From the NCBI RefSeq assembly GCF_027364955.1, contig NZ_DAHXOI010000004.1, forward strand, positions 117,916-174,904: a stretch of DNA of 56,989 bases. The letters are read 5' to 3'. Shown here piece after piece: positions 7,165 to 18,152 of the stretch (positions are counted from its first letter, which is position 1; every line of letters begins with the position of its first letter). A program made the translations under genes and the position numbers. The stretch is from Ferrimicrobium sp. (GTDB taxonomy: Bacteria; Actinomycetota; Acidimicrobiia; Acidimicrobiales; Acidimicrobiaceae). The notes below the pieces were generated by a model. That model worked only from the letters and a program-made list of their open reading frames with translations. It had not been told where the DNA came from and did not search any database.

Positions 7165-8214
7165 TTACCCGAGGATGGACAACGAGGAAAAGTCACCCTG
7201 TTGATCAGTAAAGGGTTCGGTGTAGACGGCATCGGGCTCTAGGGCCCGGACGGCTCGCGTGCAATCTTGGACGAAGGCGTCACTGCCGGCGATGAAGACT
7301 GCGGTATCGGCGAGGCGAGGAAAGATATCGCTGAGCATGCCGGGGAGGCGCCCATGATAATGTGGTAGCTCCCCGCAGCTCGGATCGTGAGGGTGCCGCG
7401 TGTAGGTGACCTGGAGTTCAAAGTTGGGGTATCGATGGGTCAGGTAGGCGAGTTGGCCAGGGGGGTAGACATCGCTTGGCGTACGTGCGGAAAATAGCAG
7501 CGTGACGTGATGGGCAAATCCCCGGCGTAGTGCGGCTTCAGTGAGTGAAAGGATAGGTGCCAAGCCCGATCCTCCCGCGATGAGCAGGACCGGTGTCGCG
7601 ATGGCGGGGTCTCCGATAAAGGAGCCGTAGGGCCCGTTGATCATGAGCGTGTCGCCGATGGCGACGTTATTGGTCAGCCAGGTGCTGGTTTGGCCGAATG
7701 GTTCTCGGGTGATCTCGAGGATCAGCTCACCGTCGGGGCGGGGTGCGTTCGCCATTGAATAGTTGCGCAAGGGGTACTCGGGTGGTGATCCAAGCTGTAC
7801 GTGTTGACCTGGCCAAAAGCGCAGCGGGTCACCGAGTGGTCGCAGTCGCAGTTCGACGATGGAAGGGGTGCGTTCTAGCCGTTCTACGACGATATGTGGT
7901 ACCTGCTCTCGAGGGGGGAACAGGGTGGGCTTGGCGTCCTCCGTACCCCATTCGATCTCCAGATAGTCTGAGAGAGGTTTGGCCATGCACATCGCGCCGT
8001 AGCCCTGCTGACGTTCCTCCTGCGAGAGCGCCATATCGAGGACGAATCCCTGATCGAAGGAGCCTGAGCGCACCTTGACTTTGCACTCTCCGCATGTCCC
8101 AGCTCTGCAGTTGTTGGGCAAGGCCCAACCTTCGGCCTCCAAGGCGGCCAAAACCGTCATGCCATCAGGACAGGGTATCTCGTTACCGGATGGGTAAAGT
8201 CGAATGATCGACAT
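7165..8214 (-). CDS. Ferredoxin-domain FAD/NAD(P)H reductase, oxygenase electron-transfer component
   Basis: A 349-aa electron-transfer flavoprotein that would pass electrons from NAD(P)H through FAD and a 2Fe-2S centre to an oxygenase. The N-terminal plant-type ferredoxin domain has Cys36, Cys41, Cys44 and Cys76 (NNCRAGTCGECKVKV ... MCMAKP). The FAD-binding RNYS lies at 150-153 and the NAD-binding GGSGLAP at 214-220. I chose the ATG at 8214 because AAAGGAGG sits four bases upstream; a longer frame to 8274 has no such site. This ferredoxin-first order is that of phenol, toluene and benzoate oxygenase reductases; PaaE has the reverse order. It diverges from the di-iron protein gene across a shared promoter region, making that protein its probable partner (inference). 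Confidence 0.88.
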   Translation of the reverse strand: MSIIRLYPSGNEIPCPDGMTVLAALEAEGWALPNNCRAGTCGECKVKVRSGSFDQGFVLDMALSQEERQQGYGAMCMAKPLSDYLEIEWGTEDAKPTLFPPREQVPHIVVERLERTPSIVELRLRPLGDPLRFWPGQHVQLGSPPEYPLRNYSMANAPRPDGELILEITREPFGQTSTWLTNNVAIGDTLMINGPYGSFIGDPAIATPVLLIAGGSGLAPILSLTEAALRRGFAHHVTLLFSARTPSDVYPPGQLAYLTHRYPNFELQVTYTRHPHDPSCGELPHYHGRLPGMLSDIFPRLADTAVFIAGSDAFVQDCTRAVRALEPDAVYTEPFTDQQGDFSSLSILG

Positions 8215-8312
8215 GGGGCCTCCTTTGAGTTCTCGACACACACGACAGCCTCGGCATGATGCGATGCTACTCACCGGGTCATCGGATCAAACCATAACGA
8301 GCGCGACCGTGC

Positions 8313-8318
8313 TACTAT
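8313..8318 (+). promoter_or_regulatory. Candidate -10 box of the catabolic operon
   Basis: TACTAT lies 49 nt before the GTG start of the di-iron gene and just upstream of the palindrome at 8329. No convincing -35 element is visible at the matching distance, so the site is tentative. Confidence 0.35.
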
Positions 8319-8328
8319 TGTAGTGTCC

Positions 8329-8346
8329 CGACCGAATGGTCGGTCG
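8329..8346. promoter_or_regulatory. Palindromic operator, probable TetR-family binding site
   Basis: CGACCGAATGGTCGGTCG is a perfect inverted repeat with 7-bp arms and a 4-bp centre. It sits downstream of a candidate -10 and 20 nt before the start codon at 8367, the position expected for a repressor block. The operon it heads encodes a TetR protein (12335-12946), the most likely ligand. A-C-C-G...C-G-G-T-type palindromes are typical for TetR regulators of acyl-CoA catabolism (family knowledge). Confidence 0.65.
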
Positions 8347-8366
8347 ATGTGTGAAAGGGGAATAAC

Positions 8367-9392
8367 GTGGCACAGGCACATGACGGACTGGGTGGGTCGA
8401 TGGAGTTTCCTCCGCCAATTGAACAACCCAATGTTTTTCCTCTGTCTTGGGAGTCAAAGACCGCAAAACTCGATGAGATCTGGGCTTCTGCACAGAAGGA
8501 GTATTGGGATCCCGCACGACTTCCATGGGATGGTCTTCGTCTTGATCAGATGTCCGCAGCTGAACGAGAGGCCGTAGCGTACTGGTTTTCGTTGTTATCA
8601 GTCTTTGATGCCTCGGCACCTCCGGTGTTCGCAACTGCGCTGGTACACGCCTATGAGATCCATGAAGAGGACCCCGTACGCAGGGCGTTCTTCTCGATTA
8701 CCCGTGACGAGCAGAACCACGAGATCGTCTGTGGCAAGGCCATCTCGTTGCTGACCCCAGGTGGCCCTCTTGACTACGAACCGCAGTCGGATCTTGGACG
8801 CCGGGCCAAGCGCAATGTCCAATGGCTCTATCACAACGGTGCACGCTATTGGAATGGTTACAAAAAGGCAGTCCCTCGCTACTCCATGGCGGTGCTGTTT
8901 AGCTCCTTCCTCATGGGGGAAGTAGCGTCATCGACACTGTTTCATTATATGTATACACACACGACGATTCCCGTCTTCAAGGAGGCGTTCCGGGCGATCG
9001 GTCGTGATGAGGGGCGACACATGGCCATCTGTTTGTCCTTAATGGAGCGTGATTATCCCAAGATCAGCGATGAGGATCGCTCGATTGTGACAAAGCAGAT
9101 CAGAGCAGGCTATGTCTTCCTCTCCGGTGTACTCTTTGAGCCTCCCTCCGACTTCTGGGATCTTCCTGACGACTTTATCTCCACACAACGCGAGATTGAG
9201 GAGGTTGCCCGTGCAGCGGGACTGGGAGTCGCCACCTACGATGAGAAGTTAGAGAATTGGCGACAGGCGATGCTCAATGTCAAGGGGGTCTTGGAGCGTT
9301 ATGATATTCCGTTCCCAGCCATCCCGGAGGTCGGCATCTCTGGAGAGGAAGTCACGGACGTAAATTGGGACGAGATCATTCCAGTGTTTTAG
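8367..9392 (+). CDS. R2/R2lox-like di-iron ferritin-fold protein, putative oxygenase
   Basis: A 341-aa protein of the ribonucleotide-reductase-R2/ferritin-like class. A full six-ligand di-iron set can be traced in R2 order: Asp81, Glu115-x2-His118 (RDEQNH), Glu185 (LMGEVA) and Glu215-x2-His218 (RDEGRH). Spacing resembles R2lox. The Val and Tyr that form the R2lox ether cross-link correspond here to Ala84 and Ser180, and no NrdA partner is nearby, so neither nucleotide reduction nor classical R2lox chemistry is expected. Start is GTG at 8367 behind AAAGGGG. It is first in an operon of Paa-like enzymes and divergent from a ferredoxin-reductase, so I infer an O2-activating hydroxylase or epoxidase on an aromatic or acyl-CoA substrate. 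It is not PaaA by sequence. Fold is confident, substrate is not. Confidence 0.75.
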   Translation: MAQAHDGLGGSMEFPPPIEQPNVFPLSWESKTAKLDEIWASAQKEYWDPARLPWDGLRLDQMSAAEREAVAYWFSLLSVFDASAPPVFATALVHAYEIHEEDPVRRAFFSITRDEQNHEIVCGKAISLLTPGGPLDYEPQSDLGRRAKRNVQWLYHNGARYWNGYKKAVPRYSMAVLFSSFLMGEVASSTLFHYMYTHTTIPVFKEAFRAIGRDEGRHMAICLSLMERDYPKISDEDRSIVTKQIRAGYVFLSGVLFEPPSDFWDLPDDFISTQREIEEVARAAGLGVATYDEKLENWRQAMLNVKGVLERYDIPFPAIPEVGISGEEVTDVNWDEIIPVF

Positions 9393-10240
9393 GTCGAGAT
9401 CAAGAGGCAACGATTGGGATCGTCGGTGGAGGAACCATGGGCGCCTCGATCGCTTCCCAGTCGTTGTTGTGTGGTCTTCGGACTACCGTCATTGAGGCTA
9501 GGGCAGATGCGGCCGCGCGGGCTAGAGAGCACATCATCGCTACGTTAAGTCGGGCGCGTAGCCGTGGATTCACCGACATCCCAGCGGAGGTCGTCGACCA
9601 AAACTTAGAGGTCGTCGTTGACTACGAGCGGCTTGCGGGTGCGCATGTCGTGATCGAGAGCGTGCCAGAGATCGTCGAACTCAAACGCGATGTTTTGCAA
9701 CGGATCCGTCTCGTGGTTGGAGATGAGGTGCCGATCGGTTCCAACACCTCCGCGATTGCTATTGGCAGTCTGCAACAGGGCGTGGCAGGCGCGGACAATA
9801 TCGGTGGGTTGCACTTTTTTAATCCCGTTCCCGCCTCTTCGTTGGTCGAAATCGTCGTCGGTCCCTCCACCAATGAGGCGACGGTCGCGGTCTTTAGGGC
9901 ATTGGCGGAACGACTCGATAAAGAGGCGATCGTGGTCAAGGATGCGCCCGGCTTTGCGACCTCACGTTTGGGGGTAGCCCTCGGCCTTGAGGCAATCCGC
10001 ATGTTTGAAGAGGGGGTGGCAAGCGCTGCCGATATTGACCAAGCGATGGTGCTTGGCTATAAACATCCGGTTGGTCCATTGCGGCTGACCGATTTGGTCG
10101 GGCTCGATGTCCGTCTGGCGATAGCACGCTACCTCGAACAAACGTTAGGTGATCGCTTTGCGCCCCCCGAGCTACTGATCTCGATGGTTGAGGCTGGCCG
10201 CCTCGGGAAGAAATCTGGGCAGGGATTCTTTGACTGGTGA
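9365..10240 (+). CDS. paaH: 3-hydroxyacyl-CoA dehydrogenase, PaaH/FadB2-like
   Basis: An NAD-dependent 3-hydroxyacyl-CoA dehydrogenase of 291 aa, single-domain type. The Rossmann motif GIVGGGTMGASIA starts at residue 18, SNTSAI near 126, and the catalytic His150 and Glu162 are in GLHFFNPVP and LVEIVVG. VVKDAPGFATSRL marks entry into the C-terminal helical domain. No ATG precedes the Rossmann fold; the only in-frame start is TTG at 9365, overlapping the di-iron gene by 28 nt, so translation is probably coupled. In a Paa-type route it would oxidise 3-hydroxyadipyl-CoA to 3-oxoadipyl-CoA; a general beta-oxidation role cannot be excluded. Confidence 0.85.
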   Translation: MGRDHSSVLGRDQEATIGIVGGGTMGASIASQSLLCGLRTTVIEARADAAARAREHIIATLSRARSRGFTDIPAEVVDQNLEVVVDYERLAGAHVVIESVPEIVELKRDVLQRIRLVVGDEVPIGSNTSAIAIGSLQQGVAGADNIGGLHFFNPVPASSLVEIVVGPSTNEATVAVFRALAERLDKEAIVVKDAPGFATSRLGVALGLEAIRMFEEGVASAADIDQAMVLGYKHPVGPLRLTDLVGLDVRLAIARYLEQTLGDRFAPPELLISMVEAGRLGKKSGQGFFDW

Positions 10241-10262
10241 TCACGGCACGCTAGGTTCAGCG

Positions 10263-11024
10263 ATGCAAGAGCCTTCGGGGCCCACGCACGGTCAATCCTT
10301 GGTGCTGATGAGCCAATCCGAGGGTGTCTTGCAGTTGAGTCTCAATCGACCCGAGAAGCGTAATGCCCTCTCGCTCGCACTGGTCGATCAACTGCGCCAA
10401 ACGCTCGAGCGTCTGCGGCACCAACCGGCCGTACTTGTCGTGACCTCCAGCACACCGGGGATGTTTATTGCTGGAGCTGATATCGCTGAGCTCGGCGAGC
10501 GTGGCGAGGAGGAGGCGTTCCGAGCCTTCAACGTAGAGCTCTTCGATGCGATAGCGCGTTGGCGTTGGCCCTCTATCGCAGCTATCGATGGGCCCGCTTT
10601 TGGCGGCGGATTGGAGTGTGCACTCGCCTGCGACCTTCGGGTGGCATCACCAAGGGCTCGCTTCGCACAGCCGGAGTTGGGTCTTGGTATTCTGGCTGGT
10701 GCTGGAGGAAATTGGCGTCTTCCTGGCCTCGTCGGGGTGGGCGTTGCTCGCAAAATGCTCTACCTTGGTGAGGTGATTGACGCAGCTGGTGCACTCTCGT
10801 CCGGTCTTGTTGACGAGGTCTGTGATGACCCAGTCCTGTGCGCACGCAAGTGGGCAGAGACCATCAGGACCAAACCGTGGCGCGCTCTTGAGATAACAAA
10901 GCTAGCCTTGGGGACAGGTGGACGTTCGTCGACCGGACTCATCGACATCTTAGGTCAGGCGATCCTGTTTGAGTCGGAGGAGAAGCGGGCTCGGATGCAG
11001 ACGTTTCTTGACCGACACCACTAG
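10263..11024 (+). CDS. paaF: Enoyl-CoA hydratase, PaaF-like
   Basis: A crotonase-fold hydratase of 253 aa. The oxyanion-hole segments FIAGADIAEL (about residue 68) and GPAFGGGLECALACD (about 110) are intact, and both glutamates needed for water addition are present, Glu118 (GGGLE) and Glu138 (AQPELGLGI). I start it at ATG 10263, just after the paaH-like stop; a longer frame back to 10188 would overlap that gene by 53 nt. It would hydrate 2,3-dehydroadipyl-CoA or a similar enoyl-CoA. Contrast with the crotonase at 11525, which has Asp in place of the second Glu. Confidence 0.85.
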   Translation: MQEPSGPTHGQSLVLMSQSEGVLQLSLNRPEKRNALSLALVDQLRQTLERLRHQPAVLVVTSSTPGMFIAGADIAELGERGEEEAFRAFNVELFDAIARWRWPSIAAIDGPAFGGGLECALACDLRVASPRARFAQPELGLGILAGAGGNWRLPGLVGVGVARKMLYLGEVIDAAGALSSGLVDEVCDDPVLCARKWAETIRTKPWRALEITKLALGTGGRSSTGLIDILGQAILFESEEKRARMQTFLDRHH

Positions 11025-11049
11025 CGAGTGCGAAAGGCTGCAAAGGGTT

Positions 11050-11535
11050 ATGCGCGAGTTTTCGTTGTCAGAGAGATATCCCATTCTCTACAAGGGGTAT
11101 GGTGAGATCGCGATCGGGGAACGGCAGGCAACAAGGGGTCGCACCATCACCGAAGTCGATATTACCAATTGGTGTGCGCTGACTGGGGATTGGTTCTATC
11201 TCCATACGGACGCCCATGCGGCGCAAGCGTCGATGTTTCAGCGAGTGGTCGCTCCCGGTATTATGGTGTTCGCGATGGCTACCGGTCTCGGAGTCCCAGC
11301 GGATTCTACCGCAATTCTTGCCAACTATGGCTCTGACTCTATTCGCTATCCACACCCGACCTTTGTGGGTGACACCATCCATCTCGAAGCTGAGGTCATT
11401 GCCAAGGAGGACAAGGGCCAAGACCGTGGGGTGGTTGCATTGCGTTGGCAGGTACTCAATCAGGAGACAACGCTCGTCTGTACCAGCGTATTAAAGGTCC
11501 TCGTCGCTCGGGAGGTCCGTCCCTATGGCGTTTGA
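11050..11535 (+). CDS. MaoC-like hydratase resembling the free-standing C-terminal domain of PaaZ
   Basis: A 161-aa single hotdog-domain protein. ALTGDWFYLHTDAHAA carries the MaoC catalytic Asp47 and His52; the Asn-Pro of classical R-hydratases is replaced by Phe-Tyr, as in the PaaZ hydratase domain (TGDxFYxH). ANYGSDSIRYPHPTFVGDTI and the WQVLNQ segment also recall PaaZ. PaaZ normally joins an aldehyde dehydrogenase to this domain and opens the oxepin-CoA ring; here only the hydratase part exists, so a separate aldehyde dehydrogenase would be needed and none is in the cluster. The ATG at 11050 was chosen because the longer frame overlaps the preceding gene by 56 nt. The assignment rests on remembered family sequence. 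Confidence 0.7.
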   Translation: MREFSLSERYPILYKGYGEIAIGERQATRGRTITEVDITNWCALTGDWFYLHTDAHAAQASMFQRVVAPGIMVFAMATGLGVPADSTAILANYGSDSIRYPHPTFVGDTIHLEAEVIAKEDKGQDRGVVALRWQVLNQETTLVCTSVLKVLVAREVRPYGV

Positions 11536-12331
11536 ACGCGCCCTACCAGGGACCCTGTCGAGCCGAGATCCAGTGGTCTTTGCTCGTGGTGATGAGGTCG
11601 CCGAAGTATGGTTGAACCGGCCAGAGCGCCTGAATGCCACCACGGAGGCGATGGTGCACATGTTCAACGATGCGCTCGATGAGGTCGAGAAACGTCCACC
11701 ACGAGCCCTGCTGGTTGCTGGCGTGGGTCGAGCGTTTTGTGCCGGACGCGATCTTAGCGAGGCAAACCCTGAGGAGGAGGATGCTGAGGGGATTCTCGCT
11801 GAGCTCTATAACCCGCTGCTACTGCGGCTGGCCACTCTCGAGACAATCACGGTAGCGGCGGCGCATGGCGCCGTCCTCGGCACTGGACTCGGATTGGCAC
11901 TCTCGTGTGACTTGGTCATCACCTCGACCACGAGTCGCTGGGGGTCTCCGTTTGGTCGCATTGGGGCCGTTCTCGACTCTGGCGGCCATTATTTTTTTTC
12001 AAACCTTGGCATTGCACGGGCTTTTGGTCTCATCCTGCTTGGTGAACTGCTCGATGGACGAGGTGCGTTCGAACAGGGACTTGTCTCAAGAGTCGTCGAT
12101 GATGTCGAGTTTGATGAAGAGGTCTCCCGTTGGGTGAGCCGAGTGGCTCAAGGACCAACCCAGGCATTTCTTGCCTCCAAACGCATCCTGAATGAAGCAC
12201 GCGTGCCTGCCCTCACCAAGATACTCTCCATGGAGGCCAAAGAACAGGGCCTGTGTGCCACGACTGGTGATTACCGATCGGGCATTCGTGCCTTTGTGGC
12301 GCATCAAGACCCCTTGTTTACGGGACGTTGA
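11525..12331 (+). CDS. paaG: Enoyl-CoA isomerase, PaaG-like
   Basis: A 268-aa crotonase-family protein closest in pattern to PaaG, which isomerises ring-1,2-epoxyphenylacetyl-CoA to oxepin-CoA and shifts enoyl-CoA double bonds. AFCAGRDLSEAN at about 70 matches the PaaG oxyanion loop, and the single catalytic acid of PaaG (Asp in PDCGG) is conserved as Asp151 in VLDSGGH. The hydratase Glu pair is absent. The C-terminus with YRSGIRAFVAHQDPLFTG also matches PaaG. It starts 11 nt inside the end of the MaoC-like gene. This is the strongest single pointer to a phenylacetate-type pathway. Confidence 0.82.
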   Translation: MAFERALPGTLSSRDPVVFARGDEVAEVWLNRPERLNATTEAMVHMFNDALDEVEKRPPRALLVAGVGRAFCAGRDLSEANPEEEDAEGILAELYNPLLLRLATLETITVAAAHGAVLGTGLGLALSCDLVITSTTSRWGSPFGRIGAVLDSGGHYFFSNLGIARAFGLILLGELLDGRGAFEQGLVSRVVDDVEFDEEVSRWVSRVAQGPTQAFLASKRILNEARVPALTKILSMEAKEQGLCATTGDYRSGIRAFVAHQDPLFTGR

Positions 12332-12334
12332 GTC

Positions 12335-12946
12335 TTGGTTGACTCTCTCGTGCCAGCGCGCCGCCAAGAGATCGCGCGACTTGCGGTGAATCGATTCGCG
12401 CTACAGGGCTTTGATGGCACATCGATGAACGATCTTGCTCAGCATGTCGGCCTCTCGAAGGCGGGTATCTATCACTACTTTGCTACCAAGGAGGCGATTC
12501 TCTTTGAGGCGTTGCTGGGGTATTCCGAGCGGCTCTTGTCGACCGTGCAGCACGCCCTCGAAGGTGGCAGCACCCCCACAGCGCAGCTATCGCGGGTGAT
12601 CGAAGCGGTGCTGTATCTTTATCGTGATGCCGATGCCTATCACCAAGCCCAGATCAATGACCTTGCACGCCTTGCACCATCCCAGCAGGAGATCATTCGC
12701 GAGAACGAACGCCAGGTTGTCCGAGTGATGGAAGGACTTCTACAGCGGGTAGGACCCGAACTCGATGCATCGACCGTCAAAGCGTTGACGATGTCAACGT
12801 TCGGTATTTTGAACTGGCATGCTCGCTGGTTTCGTGAGGGATCAGGAAGGCTGGGACTGTCCGAGTATGCGAGCCTGGTCACCGAGTTTGTTGTGGGTGG
12901 AGTGGCCAACGTAGTGGTCCAACGGACACGGGAGGGGCAACCATGA
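12335..12946 (+). CDS. TetR/AcrR-family regulator
   Basis: A 203-aa one-component repressor. The N-terminal helix-turn-helix (about residues 29-49) reads MNDLAQHVGLSKAGIYHYF, followed by TKEAILFEAL, the standard TetR DNA-binding block; the rest is a helical ligand-binding domain. Start is TTG at 12335 or GTG at 12350. It lies inside the catabolic operon, 3 nt after paaG-like and overlapping paaI-like by ATGA, so it is probably autoregulatory through the palindrome at 8329-8346. An acyl-CoA or aryl-CoA intermediate is the likely inducer (inference from PaaR-type regulators). Confidence 0.85.
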   Translation: MVDSLVPARRQEIARLAVNRFALQGFDGTSMNDLAQHVGLSKAGIYHYFATKEAILFEALLGYSERLLSTVQHALEGGSTPTAQLSRVIEAVLYLYRDADAYHQAQINDLARLAPSQQEIIRENERQVVRVMEGLLQRVGPELDASTVKALTMSTFGILNWHARWFREGSGRLGLSEYASLVTEFVVGGVANVVVQRTREGQP

Positions 12947-13368
12947 CCGATCAGGAGCTCGCACAAGCGTGCGCGAAGGCGATGTATGCTCGCGATGTCG
13001 CGTCACAAGCGCTTGGAATCGAGGTCACAGAGGTGGGGCCGGGTTTAGCGCATCTCACCATGCAGGTGACGGATGCGATGGTAAACGGGCATGGAATCTG
13101 TCATGGTGGTTATCTCTTTCTCTTCGCTGACACCGCGTTCGCCTTTGCCTGCAATACCTATAACGTGGTGACGGTAGCGCAGAGTGCAGCGGTGGAGTTT
13201 ATTGTGCCGGTCTACCGGGGAGAACGGTTGGATGCGCGAGCGCGAGAGGTGACCCGCTTTGGAAGGAACGGGCTCTATGATATTGCGGTTGAACGAGGGG
13301 GCGAGGTCGTTGCGCTCTTCCATGGTCGATCGCGGTCATTGGGACAACCGGTGTTAGAGGAGGAGTAA
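12943..13368 (+). CDS. paaI: PaaI-family hotdog thioesterase
   Basis: A 141-aa single hotdog-fold thioesterase of the PaaI type. MVNGHGICHGGYLFLFADTAF carries the HGG motif (54-56) and the catalytic Asp63 of PaaI; the strand AQSAAVEFIVPVYRGE follows as in the family. The start overlaps the tetR stop (ATGA). PaaI hydrolyses stalled aryl-CoA intermediates and recycles CoA when the pathway jams, so its presence supports an aerobic CoA-thioester aromatic route rather than simple fatty-acid oxidation. Confidence 0.88.
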   Translation: MTDQELAQACAKAMYARDVASQALGIEVTEVGPGLAHLTMQVTDAMVNGHGICHGGYLFLFADTAFAFACNTYNVVTVAQSAAVEFIVPVYRGERLDARAREVTRFGRNGLYDIAVERGGEVVALFHGRSRSLGQPVLEEE

Positions 13369-13370
13369 TC

Positions 13371-14570
13371 GTGCCAAAGGCCTATATCGTTGGAGGGGTT
13401 CGAACACCGTTTGGTCGTTATGGTGGCGCACTCTCGTCGGTGCGTACCGATGACCTTGCCGCAGATGTCCTACGAGCACTCGTCTCCCGGTATCCGTCGG
13501 TGATCGGGCATATCGATGAGGTGATCCTGGGCTGTGCGAACCAAGCGGGCGAGGACAACCGCAACGTTGCCCGTATGGCGAGTCTGTTGGCGGGGCTTGG
13601 CGTTGAGACCCCAGGCGTCACCGTGAACCGGCTCTGTGGCTCCGGACTCGAGGCCATCTTGACCGCCTCGCGGTTGATTCAGAGCGGCGACGGTGAAGTC
13701 GTGATCGCCGGTGGTGTTGAGGGGATGTCTCGAGCCCCGTTTGTCATGCCGAAGGCCGCTAGTCCCTTCGATCGTTCAATGCAGGTGTTCGATACCACTC
13801 TGGGGTGGCGGTTCATCAATGCACGCATGCGAGAGGAGTACGGCATCGACTCGATGGGTGAGACGGCTGAGAACGTTGCAGAGGAGTTTTCGATCTCTCG
13901 CGATGATCAAGACGCCTTCGCGCAGCGATCACAGGAGCGTGCCGCCAAGGCGCAGGAGAACGGACGGCTCAGCCGCGAGATCGTTCCTGTCGAGGTCCAA
14001 AGTCGGCGCCAGAGCACGATGGTCGACCGCGACGAGCATCCTCGCTTGACCTCCTTGGACAAGTTAGCCCAACTCAAGGCGGCGTTCCGGCCGGGAGGTA
14101 CGGTTACGGCCGGCAACGCGAGTGGGCTCAATGATGGAGCAGGCGCGCTGCTTGTCGTGAGTGATCAGGTGGTTGATCGGTATTCGCTGACTCCCATGGC
14201 AGAGGTGGTGGCGGGGGCAACCGCGGGCGTGCCACCCCGCATCATGGGGATTGGGCCAGTGCCCGCTTCGCGCCGGGTGATGGAGCGGCTGGATCTGCGC
14301 ATTACCGACTTTGGCGTCATTGAGTTGAACGAAGCCTTTGCGGCGCAGTCGCTCGCTTGCCTGCGACAACTCGGTTTGCCCGATGATGCGGATTTTGTCA
14401 ACCCGAATGGTGGCGCGATCGCCTTGGGACACCCACTTGGTGCGAGCGGGGCGCGCCTCGCACTGACGGCGACGACCGAGTTAGCCGAACGTGATCTCGA
14501 TCTCGCGTTGGTGACGATGTGCATTGGAGTTGGGCAAGGGATCGCCGCAGTGCTCCGAAGAGTGCGCTAG
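13371..14570 (+). CDS. paaJ: Thiolase, 3-oxoadipyl-CoA/acetyl-CoA acyltransferase, PaaJ-like
   Basis: A 399-aa degradative-type thiolase. The nucleophile is Cys89 in VNRLCGSGLEA. NEAFAAQS, the His motif NPNGGAIALGHPLGASG and the final CIGVGQGIA carry the other active-site residues. Start is GTG at 13371, two bases after the paaI-like stop. As last gene of the operon it would cleave 3-oxoadipyl-CoA to succinyl-CoA and acetyl-CoA. Ordinary 3-ketoacyl-CoA thiolase activity is equally compatible with the residues; the neighbours decide the call. Confidence 0.85.
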   Translation: MPKAYIVGGVRTPFGRYGGALSSVRTDDLAADVLRALVSRYPSVIGHIDEVILGCANQAGEDNRNVARMASLLAGLGVETPGVTVNRLCGSGLEAILTASRLIQSGDGEVVIAGGVEGMSRAPFVMPKAASPFDRSMQVFDTTLGWRFINARMREEYGIDSMGETAENVAEEFSISRDDQDAFAQRSQERAAKAQENGRLSREIVPVEVQSRRQSTMVDRDEHPRLTSLDKLAQLKAAFRPGGTVTAGNASGLNDGAGALLVVSDQVVDRYSLTPMAEVVAGATAGVPPRIMGIGPVPASRRVMERLDLRITDFGVIELNEAFAAQSLACLRQLGLPDDADFVNPNGGAIALGHPLGASGARLALTATTELAERDLDLALVTMCIGVGQGIAAVLRRVR

Positions 14571-15572: not shown

Positions 15573-16598
15573 CTAGTGAGGCGGGGCGGCGGTTTCGCGC
15601 GATACCCGCCAGGACGGGTCCCGATAGGTCGCTTCGATATTGTCGGCTACGCCGAGGATGAGCGCAAAGAGTGCCATGCGGATTGGAATGCCGCGATCAG
15701 TTTGGCGAAAGATGGCGAGACGTGGATCGGTATCAAGATCGGTGCTGAGATCATTTGATGCGGGAGTTGAGTCGCGCGGCAACGGATGCATGATGACGGT
15801 CGATTGGTCTCCAACGTGGTTGACGAAGGCCATGTTGACATGAAAGTCAGAGCTGTAGCCCTCGATCTGTTCTCCCTGGAGGCGTTCGCGCTGGATGCGG
15901 GTGGTATAAATGACGTCGGCGCGTTCGGGTTCAGTTGGCAAGGCGTTTAGTTGATTGACCCTATGTCCACGTGCCTCGACGAGTTCCACGATAGAGGCGG
16001 GCATGGAAAGTAGTTCAGGGGCCAGAAGCGTGAAGGTCATTCTCTCGTAGAGGCTGAGGAGCTTGATGAGCGAGTGAACGGTGCGCCCATATTTGAGATC
16101 ACCGACGAAGAGGATGTGAGAGCCGTCCAAGCGCTTGTTGCGGGTGGCAAACTCTTCCTCGATGGTGTAGATGTCAAGCAGTGCCTGTGTTGGGTGCTCG
16201 GCGGCACCATCACCTGCATTGATTACCGGTACGAGCGAGGCATCGGCGAACTGGGCAACAGACCCTGCCTCCGGGTGCCGGATGGTCATGATATCGGCAT
16301 AACCGCTGATGACCCTCGCGGTGTCGGCGATCGATTCCCCCTTGGCCATGGAGGAGAACGTCAGGCCGACGGTCTCGCGTACGGCACCTCCGAGGCGCGA
16401 AAAGGCGCTTCCAAAGCTGAGGCGTGTTCGCGTGCTTGCCTCAAGGAAGAGGCTCGCCAAGACGGCTCCTTCGAGGGCGCGGGTGATTTTTCTGCGTCGT
16501 GCAACCGGCTCCAGGCGCTGAGCAACCGTGATGACTAGTTCGACATCCTCTCTGGAGAGTTGATCCACCGAGAGGAGGTGGCTACCTAGGAACTCCAA
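15573..16598 (-). CDS. pyrB: Aspartate carbamoyltransferase, catalytic chain
   Basis: A 341-aa ATCase catalytic subunit that condenses aspartate and carbamoyl phosphate in pyrimidine synthesis. The carbamoyl-phosphate loop FLEASTRTRLSF is at about residue 52, the mobile-loop Lys is in SSMAKGES, HPTQALLDIYTI near 135, the aspartate-site motif VGDLKYGRTVHSL near 166 and HPLPR near 270. Wording is closer to the E. coli-type chain than to many actinobacterial PyrB proteins. Start is TTG at 16598 with AAAAAGGAG six bases before it. No pyrR, pyrC, pyrI or carA flanks it. It is followed at a distance by the acyl-CoA ligase on the same strand. Confidence 0.93.
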   Translation of the reverse strand: MEFLGSHLLSVDQLSREDVELVITVAQRLEPVARRRKITRALEGAVLASLFLEASTRTRLSFGSAFSRLGGAVRETVGLTFSSMAKGESIADTARVISGYADIMTIRHPEAGSVAQFADASLVPVINAGDGAAEHPTQALLDIYTIEEEFATRNKRLDGSHILFVGDLKYGRTVHSLIKLLSLYERMTFTLLAPELLSMPASIVELVEARGHRVNQLNALPTEPERADVIYTTRIQRERLQGEQIEGYSSDFHVNMAFVNHVGDQSTVIMHPLPRDSTPASNDLSTDLDTDPRLAIFRQTDRGIPIRMALFALILGVADNIEATYRDPSWRVSRETAAPPH

Positions 16599-16643: not shown

Positions 16644-18152
16644 TTAGTTGCCGATCCGAGTGGTGTGACCGACCCAGAAAGGTTCGCGGAGATCACGTTT
16701 TAAGATCTTTCCGGCTCCGGACTTTGGTAATGGTTCTTGACGAAGGTCAATTTTCTTTGGAAGCTTGTGCCCAGCGATCTGCGTGCGTAGGAAGGCCAAG
16801 AGATCCTCGGCGCTGACCTCCTCTCGTGGCACGACGACGGCATGGACAGCCTCTCCCCACTTGGGGTCGGGCACGCCAAAGACAGCAGCCTCTTGCACCT
16901 TGGGATGACGATAGAGCGCATCCTCAACCTCGATGGTGTAGACGTTCTCGCCCCCGGTGACCACCATGTCCTTGAGCCGATCGATGAGGAAGAAGTATCC
17001 AGTTGAGTCTCGAAATCCGAGATCACCAGTGTGGTACCAGCCGGAGCGGAGGGCCTGCTGTGACTCCACCGGTAGGTTCCAGTAACCCTTCATCACGTTG
17101 TTACCTCGGATGGCGATCTCGCCTACTTCACCAGGGCCGAGCGGTTGGTCGTCCGGGTCGAGTACGGTGAGATCGACACCGACGGCAGGTACGCCGATCG
17201 AACCCGCCAGTGCGTCGGTCAGATGTCGCTCCTCGTGGGGGAAGATCGATGCGATCGGAGAGGTCTCGGTAGTCCCGTAGAGGTGGAGCATCTCTGCTTC
17301 AGGAAAATACCGGTGGCTTGCCTTGAGGATCTCAAGGGGGGCTGGGGAGGCGCCGTGGCTCAGCAATCGCAATGAGGAGACATCGCGAGGAGAGGTGGCC
17401 ATCGTGTCGTTCATGGCGAGCATCATGGTTGGTACGGCAAGCGTCCCAGTGGCTCGTTCGCCCTCGATGATGTCGAGTGCCTGGGTGGGTGAGAAGGTGC
17501 TCAGCATGATTTGGGTCGTGGTGAGCCATAATGAGGCAAGGACTAGGCACGTACCGGCAGCGTGGAACATCGGTGCCATGACGAGCCATCGATCGTCCTC
17601 GGTCAGATGTGTCCAGGCAATGGCGGTCCATGCGTTTGCGAGCAGATTGCCATGGGTGAGCATGACCCCCTTGGACCGTCCAGTGGTACCTCCGGTATAG
17701 AACAAGCCTGCCAGCGTCTCCTCGTTAGGCTGGCTGAGGAAGGAGGCAGGGGTGGCCTTGCTCACCAACTCGTCATAGTGCCCGGGGATCGTAATAACCT
17801 GCTCCACGCACGGGGGAAGGGGGCCAAGGTCGCGGTCGGTAACGACGACCTTGACGTCGGCGTCAGAGAGCGCGAAGACCACTTCGGCGTTGGTTGAACG
17901 GGTACTGAGTGGCACCAAGACGAGGCCGTTCGAGGGGACTGCAAGGTAGACCTCAAGATAGCGATGACAGTTATTTGCGATAATGGCGACCCGGTCATCG
18001 GGACGAAGGCCAAAATGCTGGAGCACAGCGCTCAGCTGGTGTACTCGCTGGTCAAGTTGATGGAAGGTGAAGTGTTCGCCACCACAGACGATAGCGTCCT
18101 TCTGTGGCGCTACACTTGCCCCACGCCGTAGCGGATCCTGAAATGAATGCAT
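16644..18152 (-). CDS. AMP-forming acyl-CoA synthetase
   Basis: A 502-aa ANL-superfamily ligase activating a carboxylic acid to its CoA thioester via an acyl-adenylate. The P-loop-like motif YTGGTTGRSKGVMLTH lies near residue 150, YGTTETSP (A5) near 290, the hinge LIDRLKDMVVTGGENV (A8) near 400, and the catalytic Lys motif PKSGAGKILKRDLRE (A10) near the C-terminus. The A8 Gly-Glu-Asn is typical of medium/long-chain or aryl ligases; it is not of the PaaK family. It lies 46 nt upstream of pyrB on the same strand. Its product could feed the CoA-dependent cluster at 8.4-14.6 kb, but that link is only proximity. Confidence 0.9.
   Translation of the reverse strand: MHSFQDPLRRGASVAPQKDAIVCGGEHFTFHQLDQRVHQLSAVLQHFGLRPDDRVAIIANNCHRYLEVYLAVPSNGLVLVPLSTRSTNAEVVFALSDADVKVVVTDRDLGPLPPCVEQVITIPGHYDELVSKATPASFLSQPNEETLAGLFYTGGTTGRSKGVMLTHGNLLANAWTAIAWTHLTEDDRWLVMAPMFHAAGTCLVLASLWLTTTQIMLSTFSPTQALDIIEGERATGTLAVPTMMLAMNDTMATSPRDVSSLRLLSHGASPAPLEILKASHRYFPEAEMLHLYGTTETSPIASIFPHEERHLTDALAGSIGVPAVGVDLTVLDPDDQPLGPGEVGEIAIRGNNVMKGYWNLPVESQQALRSGWYHTGDLGFRDSTGYFFLIDRLKDMVVTGGENVYTIEVEDALYRHPKVQEAAVFGVPDPKWGEAVHAVVVPREEVSAEDLLAFLRTQIAGHKLPKKIDLRQEPLPKSGAGKILKRDLREPFWVGHTTRIGN

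Follow-up and report, generated by a model that had tools for sequence, protein, structure and literature searches.

Gene content of the locus

A stretch of 56,989 nucleotides from a draft genome of Ferrimicrobium sp. (contig NZ_DAHXOI010000004.1, positions 117,916 to 174,904), referred to here as the window, carries a cluster of genes resembling those for aerobic phenylacetate (paa) degradation. In this cluster an unnamed pair of proteins, a di-iron protein and a divergently encoded reductase, appears to stand in for the multi-protein epoxidase PaaABCE, and the same pair occurs in numerous bacteria that gave no match to the known version. The features concerned are as follows:

7165–8274, minus strand: NAD(P)H reductase, ferredoxin [2Fe-2S]-FAD-NAD (Pfam Fer2, FAD_binding_6, NAD_binding_1), proposed electron donor
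8329–8346, no strand: perfect palindrome CGACCGA-ATGG-TCGGTCG, 20 bp before the di-iron gene, proposed operator of a TetR/PaaR-type repressor
8367–9392, plus strand: di-iron protein of R2/R2lox fold, 341 aa, proposed phenylacetyl-CoA epoxidase component (invariant ligands, predicted model, structural matches)
9365–10240, plus strand: 3-hydroxyacyl-CoA dehydrogenase, PaaH-like role; the open reading frame (ORF) overlaps the end of the di-iron gene
10188–11024, plus strand: enoyl-CoA hydratase, PaaF-like role
10969–11535, plus strand: MaoC hydratase, free-standing counterpart of the C-terminal domain of PaaZ (TIGR02278)
11525–12331, plus strand: crotonase, best model the PaaG isomerase (TIGR02280)
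12335–12946, plus strand: TetR-family regulator (TetR_N and TetR_C_24), proposed PaaR-like repressor
12943–13368, plus strand: PaaI thioesterase (TIGR02286)
13371–14570, plus strand: PaaJ/PcaF 3-oxoadipyl-CoA thiolase (NF006551 and TIGR02430)
16644–18152, minus strand: ANL-family acyl-CoA ligase, matched best by a general acyl-CoA ligase model; candidate activator of phenylacetate

The reductase and di-iron genes are separated by 92 bp, and tightly packed genes then run to 14570. An earlier note, made from the letters of the window alone, had described a di-iron gene divergent from a ferredoxin-first reductase; the ORF list and the order of the reductase domains in a Pfam scan (Fer2, FAD, NAD) bear this out, and all ORFs of that note are found where it placed them. 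The TetR gene, the palindrome and the ligase gene do not figure in that note. The paa-like gene set that it described holds in part. Both the PaaI protein (145.1 bits against an NCBIfam cut-off of 118.9) and the thiolase (631.9 against 605 and 617.1 against 597 bits for the two 3-oxoadipyl-CoA thiolase models) exceed their cut-offs, and PaaZ is the best model for the MaoC protein, matched over its C-terminal hydratase part only (positions 522-664 of 664). By contrast, the PaaG-like crotonase falls below its cut-off (187 against 345 bits), while the dehydrogenase and hydratase with PaaH- and PaaF-like roles match generic models only, again below cut-off. No PaaR model was matched by the TetR regulator in the NCBIfam scan. 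Between the thiolase and ligase genes lies an ORF at 15573-16598 that was named carbamoyltransferase-like by eye.

Structure and affinities of the di-iron protein

The set of six putative metal ligands recognised in the earlier note (Asp81, Glu115, His118, Glu185, Glu215 and His218) proved identical in all 34 aligned relatives. Equally invariant is Cys122, which by the ligand spacing of the E. coli protein sits where the radical tyrosine of class I R2 subunits is expected; some R2 classes also have no radical tyrosine. Counting by ligand spacing would put Ala84 (34/34) at the site of the cross-linked R2lox valine and the nearly invariant Ser180 at that of the tyrosine, and Ile/Val211 stands where AurF carries an extra histidine ligand.

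Overall confidence in the predicted model is fair to good (pLDDT 80, pTM 0.84), with a weak region near Asp81 (about 61). Its best match in a structural search is R2lox 6f6f (Z 17.7, rmsd 3.5, 245 residues aligned, 11% identity), followed by the azoxy synthase VlmB (Z 17.5), aldehyde-deformylating proteins (about 17), ribonucleotide reductase (RNR) R2 subunits (16-17) and the hydroxylase of soluble methane monooxygenase (15.9). As predicted, therefore, the protein is of the R2-type ferritin-like fold, with a putative two-metal site formed by the invariant ligands, and has no clear nearest family because the Z scores of several families lie so close together. PaaA, PaaC and BoxB are absent among the 50 best structural matches listed, which has no bearing on their folds.

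The only Pfam match of the window protein is a sub-threshold one to AurF (PF11583; 25.4 bits, cut-off 29.6). When the 34 relatives were searched singly at an E-value of 0.01, AurF was matched by 33, Rubrerythrin by 31 and the RNR small chain by 14 (best 1.3e-5). There was no NCBIfam match, nor any match in the PDB for the protein alone (E up to 1) or for the 34-member profile (E up to 10). Against PaaA and PaaC, no PF05138 match was obtained and the hhalign probability was below 1%; against BoxB, no model matched and the hhalign probability was 0.5%, both comparisons using shallow alignments.

Three identities were rejected on these grounds. An RNR small subunit shares the fold and a similar ligand spacing with the window protein, which nevertheless reaches only 16.2 bits against the Ribonuc_red_sm (PF00268) cut-off of 33.6 and has Cys122 at the radical-tyrosine place. 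The AurF/CmlI/VlmB N-oxygenases supply the most frequent Pfam match and, in VlmB, one of the closest folds; the window protein differs in its sub-threshold AurF score, its pathway context and the residue at the place of the extra histidine. BoxB was dismissed for want of any model match and for its hhalign value. R2lox, although ranked first by fold and similar in its six-ligand pattern, is tied with VlmB and has little sequence identity to the window protein, which in addition has a paired reductase, a catabolic operon and, by the spacing from the first ligand, alanine at the place of the valine.

Distribution and pairing with the reductase

One scan of species genomes returned 506 relatives, of which the 80 closest loci (at least 64% identical) were kept; these are not representative of all 506. 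Judging by their titles, the 80 come from Actinomycetes, Alpha-, Beta- and Gammaproteobacteria and Bdellovibrio-type bacteria. A relative in a Ferrimicrobium metagenome-assembled genome (MAG) is 95% identical to the window protein. The gene is carried by the window genome and by all six other genomes of the genus, with a PaaA match in none of the seven, and a class-wide sample gave a match in 12 of 395 genomes (window genome included), three of them weak.

Pairing with the reductase is nearly constant among the closest loci: in 79 of the 80, no more than 400 bp separate the di-iron gene from a reductase homologue, and the reductase is also adjacent in two Variovorax loci that belong to the more distant members (52-57% identical). 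Automatic clustering of neighbours was noisy in GC-rich loci, where spurious antisense ORFs arise, and only labelled matches and HMM-checked genes were used. On this basis the 80 loci include PaaK-like genes in 27, PaaA-like in 14, PaaZ/PaaN-like in 35, PaaI-like in 27, thiolase-like in 31 and PaaX in 34, with at least one paa gene or PaaX recognisable in 61; all three PaaX homologues that were checked pass TIGR02277. Other neighbours of the pair include a hemerythrin domain fused to a LivF-type ABC transporter ATPase in Rhodocyclales (L028:14835-16151) and a free-standing hemerythrin in Azospirillum (L023:12432-12998), possibly indicating a link to oxygen.

Known epoxidases in genomes that carry the pair

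The window genome is a 3.08-Mb draft, 97.6% complete, and PaaA has no match anywhere in it. The sole match to the PaaA_PaaC family is BoxB (849.6 bits, cut-off 499.1). The earlier note had seen none of PaaA, PaaB, PaaC and PaaK at the locus; the whole draft likewise has no PaaA match, no PaaC-type protein other than BoxB and no PaaK over its cut-off, while PaaB was not searched for. Nor is there the combination of a paaABCDE set elsewhere and an NrdA-linked di-iron protein, there being no PaaA match and a profile score below the RNR small-chain cut-off.

BoxB, of 479 aa, belongs to a BoxA/BoxB/BoxC-type benzoyl-CoA cluster on contig 1 (L001 / L117), with a BoxC-like neighbour (684.5 against 712.3 bits) and a BoxA-like one that is cut by the locus end (375.8 against 459.2). 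BoxAB, as is proposed for the pair, combines a di-iron protein with a reductase and acts on an aromatic CoA ester; BoxB differs in lacking profile similarity to the di-iron protein of the pair and in being encoded separately in the same genome. It is conceivable that this BoxAB also epoxidises phenylacetyl-CoA, leaving the R2-like pair an accessory or redox role, and the presence of BoxB over cut-off with its Box-like neighbours (sought in the window genome only) speaks for such a reading. BoxB, however, is probably specific for benzoyl-CoA, the operator and the paa-type operon are found at the R2-like gene, and no operator site with fewer than three mismatches occurs in the 19 kb around the Box genes, and this explanation is considered very improbable.

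Incomplete MAGs alone do not account for the absence of PaaA, since carriers without any PaaA match include the named strains Dechloromonas denitrificans ATCC BAA-841, Azonexus hydrophilus DSM 23864, Azospirillum halopraeferens DSM 3675 and Tepidiphilus DSM 15129 and DSM 15512. PaaK or PaaZ exceeds its cut-off in 26 of the 38 distinct carriers in which PaaA does not. A family sample around D. denitrificans (G483) comprised 121 genomes with 22 carriers, one carrier match being a fragment. PaaK over cut-off is present in all 22 carriers, against 66 of the 121 overall (hypergeometric P = 2.4e-7, too optimistic given shared ancestry). Half of these carriers (11/22) lack PaaA; in 8 of them the di-iron gene and PaaK are no more than 7 kb apart, as against 2 of the 11 with PaaA.

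Operators and regulators

According to the review PMC9493321, the Burkholderia cenocepacia PaaR operator is ACCGACCGGTCGGTT at PpaaA and PpaaZ and ACCAACCGGTCGGTT at PpaaH, and phenylacetyl-CoA induces both PaaR and PaaX. The window palindrome differs from the published PaaR core at two central positions. It is kept with at most one mismatch in three close relatives and exactly in G012, a genome of the same family as that of the window (one contig, 2.16 Mb, 99% complete). G012 has the same cluster minus the MaoC gene, plus a full-length PaaZ (897.7 bits), but nothing matching PaaA or, at E 1e-80, PaaK; an orthologue of the window ligase (64% identical) adjoins the cluster. The exact operator pattern has only two copies in the whole of G012, one before the di-iron gene and the other 22 bp before paaZ, and a copy with one mismatch lies 30 bp upstream of the ligase orthologue. 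All three contain ACCGACCGGTCGGT, equal to 14 of the 15 bases of the PpaaA/PpaaZ operator given in PMC9493321. Where Burkholderia has the operator before paaA and paaZ, G012 has it before the di-iron gene and paaZ. Among the places listed for G012, eight match with one mismatch, of which one overlaps the site at the di-iron gene, one is that at the ligase and six are elsewhere.

The motif was first noticed in the window and later matched to the published operator, and is in that respect partly post hoc; the published 14-base core was used to scan the 400 bp upstream of the di-iron gene in 84 loci, with mononucleotide shuffles as control and L035 left out (56 bases upstream). The core was found without mismatch in three loci, with one mismatch in five and with two in seven, amounting to 8/84 at up to one mismatch against 0.05 expected and 15/84 at up to two against 0.4, in a set that is not independent, as it includes three Tepidiphilus, four Thauera/Azoarcus-type and two Denitromonas-type relatives. 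Operator-like sites are also present at Denitromonas, Tepidiphilus and Thauera/Azoarcus-type loci with no recognised paa gene in the fetched stretch, and in all at 10 of 19 loci without a recognisable paa gene. Defining a regulon by a whole-genome search at up to two mismatches was rejected as too loose, given the forward and reversed-control counts of 30/26 in G000, 33/25 in G003 and 124/19 in G012. In the window, the 16-base form of the pattern gives nine matches at up to two mismatches where 4.55 would be expected, and its one exact match is the site before the di-iron gene.

Taken as sequence evidence, the operator-like sites and PaaX neighbours would place the pair under PaaR- or PaaX-type control. 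The TetR protein encoded at 12335-12946 is proposed to bind the palindrome at 8329-8346, and the ligase at 16644-18152 is proposed as the phenylacetate activator from its position and from the operator at its G012 orthologue. Inspection by eye showed no operator upstream of the ligase gene in the window itself.

Replacement, coexistence and alternative functions

It seems quite probable, from the genomic associations above, that the pair is a two-component phenylacetyl-CoA 1,2-epoxidase, not orthologous to PaaABCE, which it would replace in some lineages and coexist with in others. A number of observations weigh against this. In the window genome nothing exceeds the PaaK cut-off, the one match scoring 21.8 bits. 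A PaaZ/BoxD-type aldehyde dehydrogenase on contig 9 (496 bits over PaaZ model positions 3-503) passes the BoxD-type model NF008868 (616 against 444 bits), has no operator with up to three mismatches within 5 kb, and may be a Box enzyme; any assignment of the semialdehyde step in this genome is therefore tentative. Twelve of the 38 carriers without PaaA over cut-off have neither PaaK nor PaaZ over cut-off, namely the seven genomes of the window genus and G362, G259, G267, G441 and G462. Four loci of more distant members (L014, and L098-L100 with their short flanks) showed no recognisable reductase next to the di-iron gene, and at one of them, the Nonomuraea locus L014, no pathway gene was recognised either. 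Finally, nine of the 80 closest loci have no paa gene, PaaX or operator (L020, L026, L035, L056, L063, L071, L073, L076 and L078, of which L035 was not scanned for operators), five of them in Bdellovibrio-type genomes that have PaaZ over cut-off nonetheless.

The chief difficulty is that many carriers have both systems. Of the 60 distinct carrier genomes (64 entries searched), 22 have PaaA over cut-off and six more have weaker PaaA-like matches of 20-114 bits (G244, G362, G442, G443, G465 and G475). G244, of the same class as the window genome, has eight such matches, possibly a separate PaaA/PaaC-like expansion. Two Azospirillum loci (L023:7600-8418 and L024:7606-8424), in genomes without PaaA over cut-off, encode, at a distance of about 1.5 kb from the di-iron gene, a protein of 272 aa that shares 27% identity with PaaA. 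Among the 121 sampled genomes the pair and PaaA are found together more often than by chance (odds ratio 4.8, P = 0.004); two systems of one pathway should behave in this way, whereas strict replacement should not. A further 29 genomes of the sample have PaaK but neither oxygenase, and many of them may use the anaerobic route. This co-occurrence, together with the 22 genomes that hold both systems and the hemerythrin domains encoded near the pair in both neighbourhoods tested, would also suit a second phenylacetyl-CoA oxygenase for special conditions such as low oxygen, originally alongside PaaABCE, with PaaA lost later elsewhere. For the window genome that history predicts the same as an epoxidase replacing PaaABCE, and it is considered very improbable.

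The pair also adjoins paaABCDE in four Marinospirillum loci and one Nitrincola locus, and in Vitreoscilla the pair and the paa system lie within about 12 kb, the pair standing on plasmid pVF1 (L011:10972-23108) between a complete paa cluster and homoprotocatechuate-type genes. On the same plasmid a HipA-like toxin gene adjoins the reductase. The Variovorax loci L012 and L013 (55-56% identical) differ in gene content: here the pair is accompanied by an OB-fold protein, a thiolase, an FAD oxidase and a 1166-aa protein of the indolepyruvate ferredoxin oxidoreductase family, which suggests an aromatic amino acid or indole route. As these clusters differ, the more distant members may use another arylacetyl-CoA. 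On another reading the pair would be an oxygenase for a substituted or related arylacetyl-CoA, such as the hydroxyphenylacetyl or indoleacetyl ester, and would supply the Paa pathway without acting on phenylacetyl-CoA itself. Its position beside paaABCDE in some operons and between the two gene sets in Vitreoscilla would fit such a substrate, as would the AMP-ligase and amino-acid-type transporters that accompany the oxidoreductase in Variovorax. However, some carriers without PaaA have a full PaaZ, the window operon has PaaI and PaaJ in a genome where no known phenylacetyl-CoA epoxidase was found, and PaaX- and PaaR-type control points to phenylacetyl-CoA; a role confined to such other substrates therefore seems unlikely.

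Proposed function and significance

The two-component CoA-thioester oxygenase that the earlier note had suggested in place of PaaABC is supported by the absence of PaaA from the draft genome, the near-constant reductase pairing in the 80 closest loci, the co-occurrence with PaaK, PaaZ and PaaX and the PaaR-type operator, and the same sequence-based indications narrow its likely substrate, there left as phenylacetyl-CoA or a related compound, to phenylacetyl-CoA. In the scheme proposed for the window, the ANL ligase (16644-18152) would activate phenylacetate to its CoA ester, and the reductase (7165-8274) would pass electrons from NAD(P)H through FAD and [2Fe-2S] to the di-iron site of the protein encoded at 8367-9392, which with O2 would form the ring-1,2-epoxide of phenylacetyl-CoA. 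This product is suggested because PaaG and PaaZ of the known pathway act on the 1,2-epoxide and on oxepin-CoA (PMC9493321). The PaaG-like isomerase, the MaoC hydratase with an aldehyde dehydrogenase, and then PaaJ-, PaaF-, PaaH- and again PaaJ-type steps would convert the product by way of oxepin-CoA into acetyl-CoA and succinyl-CoA. PaaI would clear surplus CoA ester, and the TetR repressor would release 8329-8346 when phenylacetyl-CoA accumulates. The sequence data establish the genetic frame of this scheme, from gene content, conserved ligands and predicted fold to the reductase pairing, the lack of PaaA in many carriers, the PaaX neighbours and the operator-like sites; the metal, substrate, product, electron transfer and repressor binding are deduced from it.

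So construed, the pair resembles PaaABCE in its probable pathway position and PaaX/PaaR-type control and in joining a di-iron protein to a ferredoxin-FAD reductase. It differs in having one oxygenase polypeptide instead of PaaA, PaaB and PaaC, in showing no detectable profile similarity to PaaA or PaaC (in shallow alignments) and in a reductase whose ferredoxin domain comes first. The proposed novelty accordingly lies in a known reaction being carried out by a simpler di-iron system from a different family. No paper on this enzyme was found in the open-licence literature searched, and the pair goes unmentioned in the accessible portions of PMC9765128, PMC6515984 and PMC6739347.

The aerobic pathway concerned is a central one for aromatic compounds, and its key step, the ring epoxidation of phenylacetyl-CoA, is credited to one multi-subunit complex; a 2026 survey (PMC13186573) puts forward PaaA and PaaC as robust markers by which to recognise the pathway in genomes. 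On balance it is likely that a widespread family of single-subunit R2/R2lox-like proteins, with a ferredoxin-first reductase as partner, constitutes a second and independently evolved phenylacetyl-CoA 1,2-epoxidase, and that surveys based on PaaA and PaaC overlook the pathway in the organisms dependent on it. If so, the ring-epoxidation step would have arisen twice among di-iron proteins, and the R2lox/AurF neighbourhood would gain a member with a well-defined candidate substrate. Mechanistic and biocatalytic work would have a much simpler enzyme at its disposal, and the map of the pathway would be extended to carriers such as the genus of the window and several Rhodocyclales.

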